This document shows positions 746-38,659 of a stretch of 59,862 bases of DNA, in pieces; position 1 is the first letter of the stretch, and every line of letters begins with the position of its first letter. The position numbers and the translations under genes were made by a program. The stretch lies in assembly GCA_017513005.1 (NCBI GenBank), contig JAFWDM010000005.1, positions 1 to 59,862 on the forward strand. The letters are read 5' to 3'. The notes beneath the pieces are model-generated. The model ran no database searches. It was not told where the DNA came from and was given only the letters and a program-made list of their open reading frames with translations. The stretch comes from Lachnospiraceae bacterium (GTDB taxonomy: Bacteria > Bacillota > Clostridia > Lachnospirales > Lachnospiraceae).

Positions 746-811
746 TAGTCTTTTCCTCCTCTGTATACAGTTATACCAGGGGGCTGTCCCCCTGGCACAT
801 GTTCTCAAAAA

Positions 812-1166
812 ATAAGCAGGGCTGTAAGCCGGGTTCTGTCTTGGATGATCATCTATCTTGGACTGCCGTTACCGACAGCCTCCAGCGACCCACCTGAGAA
901 CGGGCCGGGCAAGCCCATGGTCCTCGTTTCGGTCTTGCTTCGGATGGGGTTTACATGGCTCTCCATGTTACCATGAAGACGGTAGTCTCTTACACTGCCT
1001 TTTCACCCTTACCCGCGGCACACCTGCGTGCGCCGCTGGCGGTATATTTCTGTTGCACTGGCCTGGGAGTCACCTCCACCGGACGTTATCCGGCATCCTG
1101 CCCTGTGAAGCCCGGACTTTCCTCAGTCCGGAATGCTCCGGACCGCGATCACCCGCCCTGCTTATC
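812..1166 (-). ncRNA. rnpB: RNase P RNA, A type
   Basis: RNase P RNA is the catalytic subunit that trims tRNA 5' leaders. On the minus strand the diagnostic GAGGAAAGTCCGGGCT occurs near the 5' end, followed by GCAGGATGCCGGATAACG, GTGCAACAGAAA and, near the 3' end, GAACCCGGCTTACAG. The 5' and 3' ends (TAAGCAGGGC and GCCCTGCTTA) pair to form helix P1. The length of about 355 nt suits an A-type clostridial RNA. A near-consensus promoter lies just upstream. Confidence 0.95.
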
Positions 1167-1243: not shown

Positions 1244-1281
1244 TTACTGTTCACGTCCTGTCGAGGGCGTGAACATGTAAC
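1244..1281 (-). repeat. Partial copy of the dispersed three-hairpin repeat (third hairpin only)
   Basis: On the minus strand this is GTTACATGTTCACG, CCCTCGACAGGA, CGTGAACAGTAA, nearly identical to the third hairpin of the copies at 23480-23633 and 38482-38635, but in the opposite orientation. It lies between the uridine-kinase-like stop and the rnpB promoter. No T-tract follows, so it is not a standard terminator. Confidence 0.75.
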
Positions 1282-1291
1282 CCCTCCCTTA

Positions 1292-9438: not shown

Positions 9439-9449
9439 GACTGTTTAAG

Positions 9450-9523
9450 TGGAACGGACGGGGATCGAACCCGTGACCTCTCGCGTGTGAGGCGAACGCT
9501 CATCCCGGCTGAGCTACCGTTCC
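9450..9523 (-). tRNA. tRNA-Val (CAC)
   Basis: 74 nt including the discriminator base; cloverleaf with acceptor GGAACGG/CCGTTCC, D arm GCTC-GAGC, anticodon loop CTCACAC (anticodon CAC) and T loop GTTCGATCC. CCA is not encoded. Confidence 0.95.
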
Positions 9524-9589
9524 CTGTTCTGTATGCCTCTGTATCTCACAGATGATACAAAAAAAGGAATCCTCAGATTCCCTTTTTCG

Positions 9590-9673
9590 TGCGGAAGATG
9601 GGACTTGAACCCACACGCTGTAACCAGCACAAGATCCTTAGTCTTGCTCGTCTGCCAATTCCGACACTTCCGC
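9590..9673 (-). tRNA. tRNA-Leu (AAG)
   Basis: 84 nt with the long variable arm of class II tRNAs. Acceptor GCGGAAG/CTTCCGC, anticodon stem CAAGA/TCTTG with loop CTAAGGA, giving anticodon AAG; T loop GTTCAAGTC. An A34 leucine tRNA implies use of unmodified or inosine wobble for CUN codons. Confidence 0.93.
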
Positions 9674-9693
9674 ATGCACTTCCAAAAGGAAGA

Positions 9694-9776
9694 TGCAGGA
9701 GATGGGACTTGAACCCACACTATGTTGCCATAACAGGCACCTGAAGCCTGCGCGTCTGCCATTCCGCCACTCCTGC
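9694..9776 (-). tRNA. tRNA-Leu (CAG)
   Basis: 83 nt class II tRNA. Acceptor GCAGGAG/CTCCTGC, anticodon stem CAGGC/GCCTG with loop TTCAGGT (anticodon CAG), long variable arm, T loop GTTCAAGTC. Confidence 0.95.
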
Positions 9777-9833
9777 GCACAAATGAAATTGTAACTCTGC
9801 CACCACAAAGCAGCTTTATGGTCTGACAGATAG

Positions 9834-9907
9834 TGGAACCGACGGGGCTCGAACCCATGACCTCCCGCACGTCAAGCGGACGCTCATCCCAGCTGAGCTA
9901 CGGTTCC
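9834..9907 (-). tRNA. tRNA-Val (GAC)
   Basis: 74 nt. Acceptor GGAACCG/CGGTTCC, D arm GCTC-GAGC, anticodon stem TCCGC/GCGGG with loop TTGACGT (anticodon GAC), T loop GTTCGAGCC. First gene of the four-tRNA transcript. Confidence 0.95.
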
Positions 9908-11342: not shown

Positions 11343-12266
11343 TCAGGCCTTTGCTTCTGCTTCCTTCTTGGCAGCAGCTGCAGCGAGGGCAGCCTGTTTC
11401 TTCTTCTCTGCTTCCTTTGCTTCCATTGCAGCAAGGGTATTCTTGACCTTCTCAAGCTGCTCCACAGAGTGCAGAAGATCCTGGATCGCGCCGGTCGGAC
11501 ACTTCACCACGCACATGCCGCACTGTTTGCACTTGGCGGGATCGATAGAAGCCAGGTTGTTTTCGACGTGGATCGCGTCGAACTTACAGGTTCTCTGGCA
11601 CATACCGCAGCCGATGCAGGCGACTGTGCAGCCCTTGCGGGCATCCGCGCCCTTCTGGGTGTTGTGGCAGCGCACGGAGATCTTGGACTTCTCGGGAACC
11701 AGCTTGATCAGGCTGTTCGGGCAGGCCTTGATGCAGGCGCTGCAGCTCGTGCACTTGTCGCGGTTAACGACAGCGACGCCCTTGATCACATGGATCGCAT
11801 CAAATGTACATGCAGCTTCGCAGTCGCCCAGTCCAAGGCAGCCGTTAGGGCAGGCCTTGCTGCCGCCGTAGAGCTGCTTGGCAGCCTTACAGGTCTTGAT
11901 ATCTTCGTAATCGAAGAGCTGCTTGGCATTGTTGGTCGTACCGTTGCACATGACAAAGGCAACCTGCTTCTCCATGCCGTCAGCGCTCTTGCCGAGGATC
12001 TCAGCGAGCTTTTCCGCACAGGCGGGGCCGCCGACAGCACACTTGGTGATCGGAACACCGTCGGGATCTTCCACGAGAGCATGTGCGTAATCGTCACAGC
12101 CTGCGTAGCCGCAGCCGCCGCAGTTAGCGCCGGGAAGCTCTGCACGCATCAGGACAAATCTGGGATCCTCCTGAATGTAGAAGACTTTTGAAGCATATGC
12201 AAGGATAATGGAAGCGATCAGGCCGACTACAACGACGAGTACGACCGGAATAATGATCTGATTCAT
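11343..12266 (-). CDS. rnfB: Rnf complex subunit B, multi-[4Fe-4S] ferredoxin-oxidising subunit
   Basis: Receives electrons from ferredoxin in the Rnf complex. One N-terminal membrane helix (residues 4-25) is followed by the four-Fe-S cluster motif CGGCGYAGC near 53-61, then three 2[4Fe-4S]-type motifs, including CTSCSACIKACP, CIGCGMCQRTCK and CKQCGMCVVKCP. The last 40 residues are an Ala/Lys/Glu-rich helix, likely coiled coil. 307 residues. The ATG at 12266 follows AAGGAGG. It is the last gene of rnfCDGEAB, followed by the terminator at 11241-11276. Confidence 0.95.
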   Translation of the reverse strand: MNQIIIPVVLVVVVGLIASIILAYASKVFYIQEDPRFVLMRAELPGANCGGCGYAGCDDYAHALVEDPDGVPITKCAVGGPACAEKLAEILGKSADGMEKQVAFVMCNGTTNNAKQLFDYEDIKTCKAAKQLYGGSKACPNGCLGLGDCEAACTFDAIHVIKGVAVVNRDKCTSCSACIKACPNSLIKLVPEKSKISVRCHNTQKGADARKGCTVACIGCGMCQRTCKFDAIHVENNLASIDPAKCKQCGMCVVKCPTGAIQDLLHSVEQLEKVKNTLAAMEAKEAEKKKQAALAAAAAKKEAEAKA

Positions 12267-12282
12267 CTGTTGACCTCCTTCC

Positions 12283-12864
12283 TTACGAGAACATTCCGCC
12301 GAATCCCATGAAGCTCAGCGCCATGATGGCTGCTGTCAGCAGGACGATCGGAACGCCCTGCCAGGACTTGGGCATACGGCTCTGGTCAACGAGTTTGCTT
12401 CGGACACCAGCCATGAGGATCATCGCAAACAGGAAGCCGATGCCGGCGCCGAATGCGTTGAAGAGAGACTGGAGATAGTTGTAACCGCTGTCGATGTTGC
12501 TGATGCAGACACCGAGGACGGCGCAGTTGGTCGTGATCAGGGGAAGGAAGACACCGAGGGACTTGTACAGTCCGACCATGTTCTTCTTCATGAACATCTC
12601 GATCAGCTGCACGAGAGCGGCGATGACCAGGATGAACACGACGGTCTGCAGATATCCGATTCCGAATCTGTCAAGCAGCAGGTTCTGGATCGGCCATGTG
12701 ACGGCAGTCGCCAGGACCATGACGAAGGTGACGGCGATGCCCATGCCCGTTGCGCTTTCCTTATCCTTGGAAACACCCAGGAAAGGGCAGATGCCCAGGA
12801 ACTGCGCCAGGGGATAGTTGTTTACCAGCACCATGCTGATGATGATGATCACATATTTAGCCAT
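12283..12864 (-). CDS. rnfA: Rnf complex subunit A (membrane subunit)
   Basis: 193-residue integral membrane protein with six predicted helices; homologous to NqrE. It shows NYPLAQFLGICPFLGVSK near the N-terminus and ITTNCAVLGVCISNID in the middle; the paired Cys regions are where an intramembrane Fe-S cluster sits between RnfA and RnfE homologues. GGGGAGG precedes the ATG. Four bases separate it from rnfE. Confidence 0.95.
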   Translation of the reverse strand: MAKYVIIIISMVLVNNYPLAQFLGICPFLGVSKDKESATGMGIAVTFVMVLATAVTWPIQNLLLDRFGIGYLQTVVFILVIAALVQLIEMFMKKNMVGLYKSLGVFLPLITTNCAVLGVCISNIDSGYNYLQSLFNAFGAGIGFLFAMILMAGVRSKLVDQSRMPKSWQGVPIVLLTAAIMALSFMGFGGMFS

Positions 12865-23337: not shown

Positions 23338-23479
23338 CGAATATGCTCAACCTCCGCACTGCCAGTGTGCTGTCCTCCACCGTTATGGCCTGCCCGCGGA
23401 TGACAGCAGCTCAGGAGCTCCATTGGAAATGATCCCCGGAAATGATCCCTGCAGTTCGTTCTGCTACAGGTCCTCAACT

Positions 23480-23633
23480 GTCACAGTTCAGGCTCACCTG
23501 AAAACTCGAGGTGTTTTTCGCGGCTTTTTCACGAAAAACCCGAGTAGAACGGCGCGCGCCGCACGCGAAGCGTATTGGAATCGGTGCGCGCAACGTTACA
23601 TGTTCACGCCCTCAATAGGGCGTGAACAGTAAC
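23480..23633 (+). repeat. Dispersed 154-bp three-hairpin repeat, copy A
   Basis: Three consecutive inverted repeats: GTTTTTCGCG with CACGAAAAAC; GCGCGCGCCG with CGGTGCGCGC, enclosing ACGC-GAA-GCGT; and GTTACATGTTCACGCCCT with AGGGCGTGAACAGTAAC. Ends are imperfectly inverted (GTCACAGTTCAG versus complement GTTACTGTTCAC). No open frame. It fills most of the 298-bp gap between the LicD gene and the polymerase-flippase gene. The second copy is at 38482-38635. Confidence 0.85.
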
Positions 23634-23635
23634 CC

Positions 23636-24490
23636 TCATCTGCCGGCAATATCCTCCGGCGTCTCGCCGGGCTCCAGAAGCCAGGCATCCATGCCGTGCA
23701 TGACACGCTTTTCCTCGGGAGGCAGCTGCATATAGTCGTGATACAGCCCCCTCAGATAGTGGTCATAATTGGAGGGCGCGTTCATCTGCCTGCCCTCGAA
23801 AGGAACCTTGACCGGAATCATGAATTTTTTCCGGGACATACGCTCCCTGGGACCATATCCCCACATGACGCAGCCGACATAGGGAGTACTGTCGTAGGGA
23901 ACGCTCATGGACAGCCTGTCGATCTTTGCAAGAAGCTTCGGCATCGGAGCCGCCACCTTCAGCACGGCGATCACCGCGGGCTTCAGAAGCCGTTTCAGGG
24001 CAGTCCTGCCCTCGCCCTTTTTTGCGATCTTGATAAAGATCAGTTTCCGCAGGCGAAGGGACTTTTCATAGAGGCGCCGGTTCTCATTTCTGTCAACGGG
24101 ATTTCCGTCGATGGGAAAAATATCCATCCAGATCTGGCTGATATTCTCCTCGCTGTCGTAATAGGGGAAATCGACGAAGGTGCGTGTGTCGACCAGCTTG
24201 ATGAAGGGATAGGACAGGCTCCCGTCGCGATAGCTCAAAAACTCCATGTACTCCGGAAACCCGGTCATATCCAGGCTGTCCGGATCAAAGAGCCGCTCAT
24301 AGTCCGTCCGCGGCATCATCACGTCGATGTCATCGTCCCAGGGAATAAAGCCCTGGTGGCGGATGGCCCCCAGAAGTGTCCCACCGCCCAGCGTAAAATA
24401 AATATCATTCTGTTCGCACAGCTTTGTAAAGGCATCGAGGAGCTCCAGCTCAAGACCGCGGATCTCCTCCAGTGTTAGTTTTTTCATCAT
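23636..24490 (-). CDS. LicD-family phosphotransferase
   Basis: 284 residues. The nucleotidyltransferase-fold signature is clear: LGGGTLLGAIRHQGFIPWDD near residues 34-53 followed by DIDVMMPR. LicD enzymes transfer phosphocholine or another phospho-polyol group from a CDP-linked donor to a cell-surface glycan or teichoic acid. It lies between two glycosyltransferases and the polymerase-flippase, so it most likely decorates this polymer. A CDP-donor-making enzyme (42362-43078) is encoded 18 kb away. The exact group transferred is unknown. The start is the first of two adjacent ATGs, with a weak AAGGGTGA site. Confidence 0.9.
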   Translation of the reverse strand: MMKKLTLEEIRGLELELLDAFTKLCEQNDIYFTLGGGTLLGAIRHQGFIPWDDDIDVMMPRTDYERLFDPDSLDMTGFPEYMEFLSYRDGSLSYPFIKLVDTRTFVDFPYYDSEENISQIWMDIFPIDGNPVDRNENRRLYEKSLRLRKLIFIKIAKKGEGRTALKRLLKPAVIAVLKVAAPMPKLLAKIDRLSMSVPYDSTPYVGCVMWGYGPRERMSRKKFMIPVKVPFEGRQMNAPSNYDHYLRGLYHDYMQLPPEEKRVMHGMDAWLLEPGETPEDIAGR

Positions 24491-30340: not shown

Positions 30341-30433
30341 ATCGTTTCATTATTTTCAATCCGGAATCAACGCATCGTGGATCATTGATCTCTGAACCGT
30401 TTTTTACTCCTCACGCCTGTCCCGGGCGGCAGC

Positions 30434-30535
30434 AAAGCTTCGCATTGCTCAAAGCTTCGCATTGCTCAAAGCTTCGCATTGCTCAAAGCTTCGCATTGCA
30501 TAAAACTTCACATTGCTCAAAGCTTCGCTTTGCTG
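30434..30535 (+). repeat. 17-bp tandem repeat, six copies, downstream of pheT
   Basis: Six contiguous units of AAAGCTTCGCATTGCTC (30434, 30451, 30468, 30485, 30502, 30519); the first three are identical and the last three differ at one to three positions. Apart from this and the hairpin, the 307-nt spacer 30247-30553 shows nothing else. Confidence 0.95.
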
Positions 30536-30553
30536 TAAGGCTGCGGGCGGCCG

Positions 30554-38443: not shown

Positions 38444-38481
38444 GAAAAATCAAAACAGAAAAAACGGCGCAGAGATAGCCT

Positions 38482-38635
38482 GTTACAGTACAGATCCACC
38501 TGAAGCCTCGAGGTGTTTTTCGCGGCTTTTTCGCGAAAAACCCGAGTGAAACGGCGCGCGGCGCACGCAAAGCGTATTGGAATCGCCGCGCGCAACGTTA
38601 CATGTTCACGCCCTCGATAGGGCGTGAACAGTAAC
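38482..38635 (+). repeat. Dispersed 154-bp three-hairpin repeat, copy B
   Basis: Same length and order of hairpins as copy A. First hairpin GTTTTTCGCG with CGCGAAAAAC; second GCGCGCGGCG with CGCCGCGCGC (fully paired), enclosing ACGC-AAA-GCGT; third GTTACATGTTCACGCCCT with AGGGCGTGAACAGTAAC. Relative to copy A a C-G pair became G-C and a G-U became G-C, so pairing is maintained. It lies in the thrC/yprB divergent spacer. Confidence 0.85.
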
Positions 38636-38659
38636 GATAGCCTGTGAACCCCTGCCGGA

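Follow-up and report, generated by a model that had tools for sequence, protein, structure and literature searches.

A dispersed 154-bp hairpin element of a Lachnospiraceae genome as a MITE probably moved by an IS66-family transposase

The stretch of DNA analysed here (59,862 nt of a Lachnospiraceae genome, referred to as the window) carries two copies of a 154-bp sequence with three hairpins. What kind of element is this, what moves it, and why do its stems stay paired where the bases of the copies differ? The original prediction described a dispersed element of the MITE type with conserved hairpins, and proposed searching the complete genome and its relatives, looking for target-site duplications (TSDs) and analysing covariation across more copies. 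All three proposals bore the prediction out: we found many copies, 8-bp target duplications, an empty site and strong covariation. The element has the properties of a MITE in that it is short, has no transposase gene of its own, is bounded by terminal inverted repeats and by a TSD of fixed length (8 bp), occurs in dispersed copies and is absent from an empty site. In addition, an IS66-type element with similar ends and the same duplication length was found in the genus. Based on these sequence comparisons, we consider it quite probable that the 154-bp element is a non-autonomous DNA transposon moved in trans by an IS66-family transposase.

Copies, ends and insertion sites

Copies A and B were found where predicted. 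Each is 154 bp long (Table 1), and the two share the same base at 139 of 154 positions. A partial copy predicted to hold only hairpin 3 (1244-1281, opposite strand) is present as well, in agreement with a covariance-model match at 1244-1280 on the minus strand (E = 7.7e-7 in the window search); inspection of its flanks by eye gave no clear target-site duplication. Close to this solo hairpin lies the RNase P RNA (class A; 809-1164, minus strand), and a cluster of four tRNAs (Val, Leu, Leu, Val) occupies 9449-9907 on the minus strand. One further remnant, absent from the original prediction, was read as a hairpin 3 (Table 1); the covariance-model search of the window at E 0.5 gave no match there. 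The prediction that no protein is encoded seems reasonable, with the qualification that there are two mechanically called ORFs, of 222 and 104 aa, that share bases with copies A and B and reach past the element ends.

Table 1. Element copies and associated features in the window
Feature	Position	Strand	Basis
Element copy A, complete, 154 bp	23480..23633	+	Covariance model 172.4 bits, BLAST
Copy A left target-site duplication CCTCAACT	23472..23479	+	7/8 identical to right duplication
Copy A right target-site duplication CCTCATCT	23634..23641	+	Flank comparison
Copy A hairpin 1	23505..23544	+	Alignment
Copy A hairpin 2	23552..23591	+	Alignment
Copy A hairpin 3	23595..23633	+	Alignment
Element copy B, complete, 154 bp	38482..38635	+	Top covariance-model match, 183.5 bits; ends GTTACAGTAC...GTGAACAGTAAC
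Copy B left target-site duplication GATAGCCT	38474..38481	+	8/8 identical to right duplication
Copy B right target-site duplication GATAGCCT	38636..38643	+	Flank comparison
Copy B left end, 23 bp	38482..38504	+	87% to right end of IS66 element L141, BLAST E 0.074 (one-to-one)
Copy B hairpin 1	38507..38546	+	Alignment, covariation
Copy B hairpin 2: 10-bp outer stem, 3' bulge with TTGGAAT, small inner stem	38554..38593	+	Covariation
Copy B hairpin 3: two back-to-back terminal repeats, including the right terminal repeat	38597..38635	+	Alignment, covariation
Solo hairpin 3: two back-to-back terminal repeats	1244..1282	-	Sequence and covariance model
Remnant, read as hairpin 3; 5' arm contains six tandem 17-bp palindromic units	30404..30538	-	Bounds by eye

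BLAST of copy B against the window's own genome (2.68 Mb in 130 contigs) returned 54 matches. With a covariance model based on 34 copies, at least 71 matches were obtained at E <= 1e-3, representing at least 62 distinct places once merged; the scoring took in 150 of 938 first-look candidates, so that these counts are lower bounds, and many of the matches are truncated or decayed. Within the genus, the element was detected in 8 of 37 genomes of a first sample and in at least 11 of 61 genomes of the genus sample (a lower bound, with six candidates scored per genome), the latter 11 being the genomes that have the neighbourhood of copy A at E <= 1e-80. It was found in none of 24 genomes from other families of the order. 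When 246 genomes of the order were searched with the model, using stricter filters and scoring 12 candidates per listed genome, the only matches were in the window's own genome, plus a single weak one (E 1.4e-5) from a different genus within the family. This weak match (L270:1500-1643) reads by eye as a complete diverged element with the TSD AATTAATC on both sides, having a similar layout and different stems; there may be broader relatives missed by BLAST. The core pattern of the element is carried by records titled Sarcina sp. DSM 11001, RUG12263, RUG12566 and S24M_St_59_sub. The titles of two of these four records name Lachnospiraceae, NCBI places the Sarcina record in Clostridiaceae, and the RUG genomes originate from the rumen. 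BLAST with copy B gave no match in plasmids and phages; in viral contigs the 46-base core pattern had no exact match and a relative of the transposase was not confirmed.

The original prediction regarded copies explained by mere overlap or assembly duplication as fatal to it. Such an origin, or chance similarity, might be suspected in an assembly as fragmented as this one (130 contigs), but it is extremely improbable: the copies differ in sequence, flanks and target duplications, and the element recurs in independent assemblies, that of Sarcina sp. DSM 11001 among them.

The imperfectly inverted ends noticed earlier proved to be the inverted pair GTTACAGTAC / GTTACTGTTC, to which we can add the previously unreported 8-bp flanking direct repeats. 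According to the alignment of copies, complete elements mostly start with GTTAC[AT]GT[TA]CA and finish with its inverse, and the window's own genome contains 57 occurrences of a 12-base end pattern compared with 2 of the reversed control. Where candidate end pairs overlapped, the pair with the best end score and TSD was retained. Because this choice carries a mild bias, we restricted the analysis to 42 strong-end pairs from the own and sister genomes (terminal-repeat score >= 22/24) and used offset controls. In 36 of these 42 pairs the flanking 8 bp agree at 7 or more positions, and in 26 the agreement is perfect. Two of the remaining six (L045 and L059) have a 7-bp repeat displaced by one base. 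In the offset control, performed on 74 candidate pairs that include many false pairs within long loci, 39 pairs reached 7/8 at the true position, 5 each at -1 and +1, 1 at +3 and none at the eleven remaining offsets. One copy (L087, identical in place to L125) was inserted next to another copy's end and has a perfect duplication of its own, ACGTGCTG. Read in element orientation, the target duplications start with G in 29 of 39 copies (p about 6e-9 against 0.29) and end with C in only 9 of 39. In other words, the target preference is asymmetric and tied to the orientation of the element.

Some copies depart from the complete form. Four shortened ones (L020, L024, L025, L033) lack much of hairpins 2 and 3 and retain the 8-bp flanking repeats, as judged by eye; they could either have suffered deletion after insertion or have moved as short forms. 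We also considered whether a solo hairpin 3 could transpose by itself, and do not claim this: one solo, L112, bears a direct repeat, GAAAAAG (7 bp), and neither the window's solo hairpin nor L123 has a clear duplication by eye.

The insertion site of copy A, located between genes with Pfam domains Polysacc_synt and LicD, could be compared with nine sister genomes that have both flanks on a single contig. The site is empty in all nine (0 covariance-model matches at E 0.01), and in one of them, G079, the two flanks meet in an uninterrupted alignment of 540 columns at 73%. Since the sister loci are devoid of the element and the flanks are joined in G079, copy A represents an insertion in this lineage, a statement that applies to copy A's site alone. 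Overall, the insertions are recent-looking, and the interior of the element is unusually modular and structure-conserving.

A candidate IS66-family transposase

Of the two features expected from mobilisation by an IS66-family enzyme, matching ends and duplication length are observed in the genus, and a transposase in the same genome is not found in the window's own assembly. A search of eight element-bearing genomes for DDE_Tnp_IS66 gave matches in six, the window's own assembly and G010 being the two without. One sister genome (G008) contains a complete IS66-type element of 2,628 bp (L141:1377-4004) with ends GTTACAGTTCAGGCCCTACTGAAAA / GTTACAGTTCAGACCCATCTGAAAA, both of which score 16/16 on the degenerate end consensus, and with the TSD CAAAAATT (8/8). 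Its 568-aa transposase reaches 41.6 bits with Pfam DDE_Tnp_IS66, over the cut-off of 23.1, and scores 110.5 with the NCBIfam IS66 model, under the cut-off of 180 for that model. The second ORF of L141 (124 aa) has no Pfam or NCBIfam match. The ISBst12 group of IS66 is described as having a single transposase ORF (PMC12898284), compared with the 568-aa transposase plus 124-aa ORF of L141. Complete IS66-type elements were found at six other loci of the genus (L130, L133, L185, L186, L187 and L190), all with ends beginning GTTAC or GTAAC and perfect 8-bp TSDs. Altogether, both ends and a TSD were recognised in 7 of 19 IS66-type loci examined; the other 12 were without them, some ending at contig ends.

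The left end of the MITE resembles the right end of L141 (Table 1), and its right end, GTTACTGTTCACGCCC, is closer in look to the L185 subgroup. Beyond the ends, one-to-one BLAST of the MITE and L141 detected no convincing similarity. We therefore do not regard the MITE as a deletion derivative of an IS66 element, the similarity to L141, the one IS compared inside, being only terminal, and we do not claim its descent from this IS. In L141 itself, strong hairpins lie 57-100 bp inward from each end (0/100 shuffles at both). Subterminal hairpins as a general trait of IS66 elements were discarded, as they are borderline in L185, L186, L133 and L130 (2-11/100 shuffles) and absent from L187 and L190 (38-85/100).

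The L141 transposase has no match in the window's own genome. Close relatives of it (89-93%) turned up, besides G008, in G026 alone, so that two of the nine element-bearing genomes covered by the search have one. More distant ones (29-36%, and a fragment at 46%) are also present in five genomes in which the element was not detected. In G028, we looked for a long element between terminal-repeat matches (C32, C51, C45, C59); inspection of the L108 and L109 ORFs by eye gave no recognisable transposase, and for L110 and L111 the end matches alone were viewed. The IS66 gene of the same genome (L140) has no matching ends.

The absence of an IS66 transposase match from the own genome, together with the mere 23 or so terminal bases that the IS66 element and the MITE have in common, leaves some room for a MITE moved by a transposase of another family. 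IS256, ISL3 and IS1595 also make 8-bp duplications, and the search covered one transposase family, IS66. Nonetheless, both the end sequence and the duplication length of 8 bp fit IS66-type elements of the same genus, and an enzyme of another family seems unlikely. Under mobilisation by IS66, a DDE transposase supplied in trans would recognise the ends of about 16 bp (GTTAC[AT]GTNCA[GC]...) and insert the element, duplicating 8 bp of the target. From the similarity of the ends we infer that the L141 transposase or a close relative of it may have done the moving. The element family offers both a named transposase candidate and many insertions with exact duplications.

Paired hairpins and exchange of modules

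Hairpins 1, 2 and 3 recur in the same order across the aligned copies. Bases of hairpin 1 and of the bulge are conserved, the 3' bulge of hairpin 2 holding GGAAT in 32 of 34 rows. The two compensatory differences predicted for hairpin 2 agree with the sequences: pair 7 is G.U in copy A and G-C in copy B, and pair 8 changes from C-G to G-C. Across copies, 7 of the 10 pairs in the outer stem of hairpin 2 are changed on both sides and the remaining 3 are invariant, and the stems of this hairpin come in such unlike versions as GCGCGCGG, GCGAAAATCCC, GCGTTCGCCCC and GCGTTTGGCG. We quantified covariation on 34 rows (31 distinct; length 145-157), leaving out copies with inserts. In the 31 distinct rows 96.7% of cells are paired compared with 88.5% after shuffling, and 100 cells are changed on both sides compared with 28.8 +/- 4.7, where cells are not independent events since modules are inherited and exchanged. 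Further pair types number 29, as against 24.4 +/- 1.7 in the shuffled alignments (reached in 2/500 shuffles), and the covariation score is 0.223, as against 0.074 for shuffled and 0.085 for the best slid version.

Part of this signal has a visible source. In two copies of G028, L043 and L166, identity is 100% for the left 67 columns, 40% for the arms of hairpin 2 and 75% for the remainder; therefore, right halves have been exchanged between copies. Covariation is partly produced by such swapping. The compensatory changes of the original prediction are thus real, and taken alone they do not demonstrate an RNA, as right-half exchange yields some of them. Because part of it arises from exchange between copies, covariation in mobile palindromes should be taken with caution as proof of a functional RNA.

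Palindromes are also nested. By eye, additional ones are inserted in hairpin arms. A 17-bp unit with AAGCTT, which has 18 exact 14-base matches in the own genome, forms the six-copy tandem array of the apparent hairpin-3 remnant (Table 1), and a comparable short array is found in G000:C35 around 12180-12290. A second subfamily of the own genome (L113, L114, L116, L119) has a different hairpin 1 and hairpin 2; its hairpin 1 is GTGCGCTTAGGCGCAC in L113, with variants in the other three.

Is the pairing maintained by selection at the level of RNA? Selection acting on one RNA strand predicts G.U mismatches in excess of A.C mismatches. In a model-fitted alignment (101 matches in 96 sources, 93 distinct, insert-bearing copies included), the kinds of mismatch number 36 for G.U and 24 for A.C (two-sided p = 0.155), and the cells 89 and 46, respectively, on the plus strand; this alignment itself favours G.U, and its cells are not independent. 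Broken down by stem, the cells are 34 vs 2 in hairpin 1's outer stem, where a single column pair accounts for 24 of them, 9 vs 7 in its inner stem, 19 vs 23 in hairpin 2 and 27 vs 14 in hairpin 3. With MAFFT the counts are 12 vs 6 kinds (p = 0.24) and 19 vs 6 cells. A G.U lean is present, then, and is non-significant by kind, so that a role as a one-strand RNA is neither shown nor excluded. A mobile functional RNA family (a regulatory RNA or an mRNA stabiliser), with selection on the transcript of one strand, could draw on this lean in cells, most pronounced in the outer stem of hairpin 1, on the conserved bulge and hairpin-1 bases and on stable folding, both strands reaching -69.8 to -73.6 kcal/mol (z -5.6 to -6.8 vs mononucleotide shuffles). 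However, the lean is missing from hairpin 2 cells, copy A's site, the one compared, is a lineage-specific insertion, and Rfam has no family for the element at the gathering threshold (whole window and copy B searched) and no convincing one below it, the best sub-threshold match of copy B (E 0.0099) being a viral hairpin that scores roughly half of what its cut-off requires. We regard an RNA family of this kind as improbable.

A stronger competitor is mutation and recombination at palindromes, in which arms are corrected by template switching and right halves are exchanged, folding being under no selection. The exchange is directly visible in L043 and L166, and both the non-significant mismatch kinds of the two alignments and the hairpin 2 cells agree with such an origin, to which we give a substantial, somewhat less than even, chance. 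On the other hand, very different hairpin-2 stems retain one architecture with the GGAAT bulge nearly always in place, nearly all cells are paired despite the sequence differences, and the diverged L270 copy of another genus appears by eye to have a similar layout made of other stems. On balance, we lean toward selection, rather than mutation and recombination alone, as what maintains the pairing. The data are compatible with selection at the RNA or the DNA level as well as with mutational correction of palindromes, and the family is a case for asking which of them makes bacterial MITEs keep their hairpins.

The interior of the MITE is a succession of hairpins with stems that stay complementary, distinct from a shortened L141 IS; right halves are swapped between copies and small palindromes are added into hairpin arms. 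If the pairing is indeed selected, copies that fold might spread better or burden the host less, so that hairpins persist. Possible benefits are that hairpins might block transcription or translation passing through the insertion, or that palindromic DNA might aid the pairing of ends. One may go further and imagine a class of genome parasites in which IS66-recognition ends surround interchangeable self-complementary modules, traded and nested, with the folding potential itself, rather than any gene or fixed sequence, being inherited and selected, but we find this doubtful.

Relation to known elements

MITEs are a known kind of element; the probable link to IS66 and the exchange of hairpin modules make this family a variant of it. 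No description of a MITE attributed to IS66 was found among the open-access papers examined, a scope outside which most subscription journals lie. REP elements, which depend on IS200/IS605-type enzymes, have single-strand hairpin ends and make no target duplication; an element of this type was ruled out by the 8-bp duplications. BOX elements are of modular build with variable inner modules, and their ends and host differ from those of the MITE described here; both are modular, the exchangeable parts of the MITE being hairpins with unlike stems. The bcr1 repeat is about 155 bp long and makes a 5-bp duplication.

A parallel for the ends is ISDge4 of Deinococcus geothermalis, an IS66-family element that is reported to have been seen to transpose, its ends being GTGACTACTCAGCA / GTAACTGCTCAGCA and the duplication at the new insertion 8 bp long (PMC12898284). 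The type of end and duplication is the same as in the MITE, whereas ISDge4 encodes a transposase and the MITE has none, its interior being unrelated to L141, the one IS compared. MITEPsy1 of Pseudomonas syringae, described as a 100-nt MITE shown to move and with ends resembling those of the resident ISPsy2, differs in being listed as 'IS5?' and in its 4-nt duplication (PMC3189936). The bcr1-bcr3 repeats of the Bacillus cereus group are characterised as structurally and functionally MITE-like intergenic repeats, often located in UTRs or intergenic parts of operons (PMC3446304); they are similar to the MITE in this respect and differ in host. BOX elements of Streptococcus pneumoniae are among the repeats named in PMC10969869. 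Finally, a MITE of Porphyromonas gingivalis is described as containing an internal minisatellite (PMC4596501) and, judging by that description, is like the window's 17-bp array in having a short tandem unit inside, with both host and element being different.
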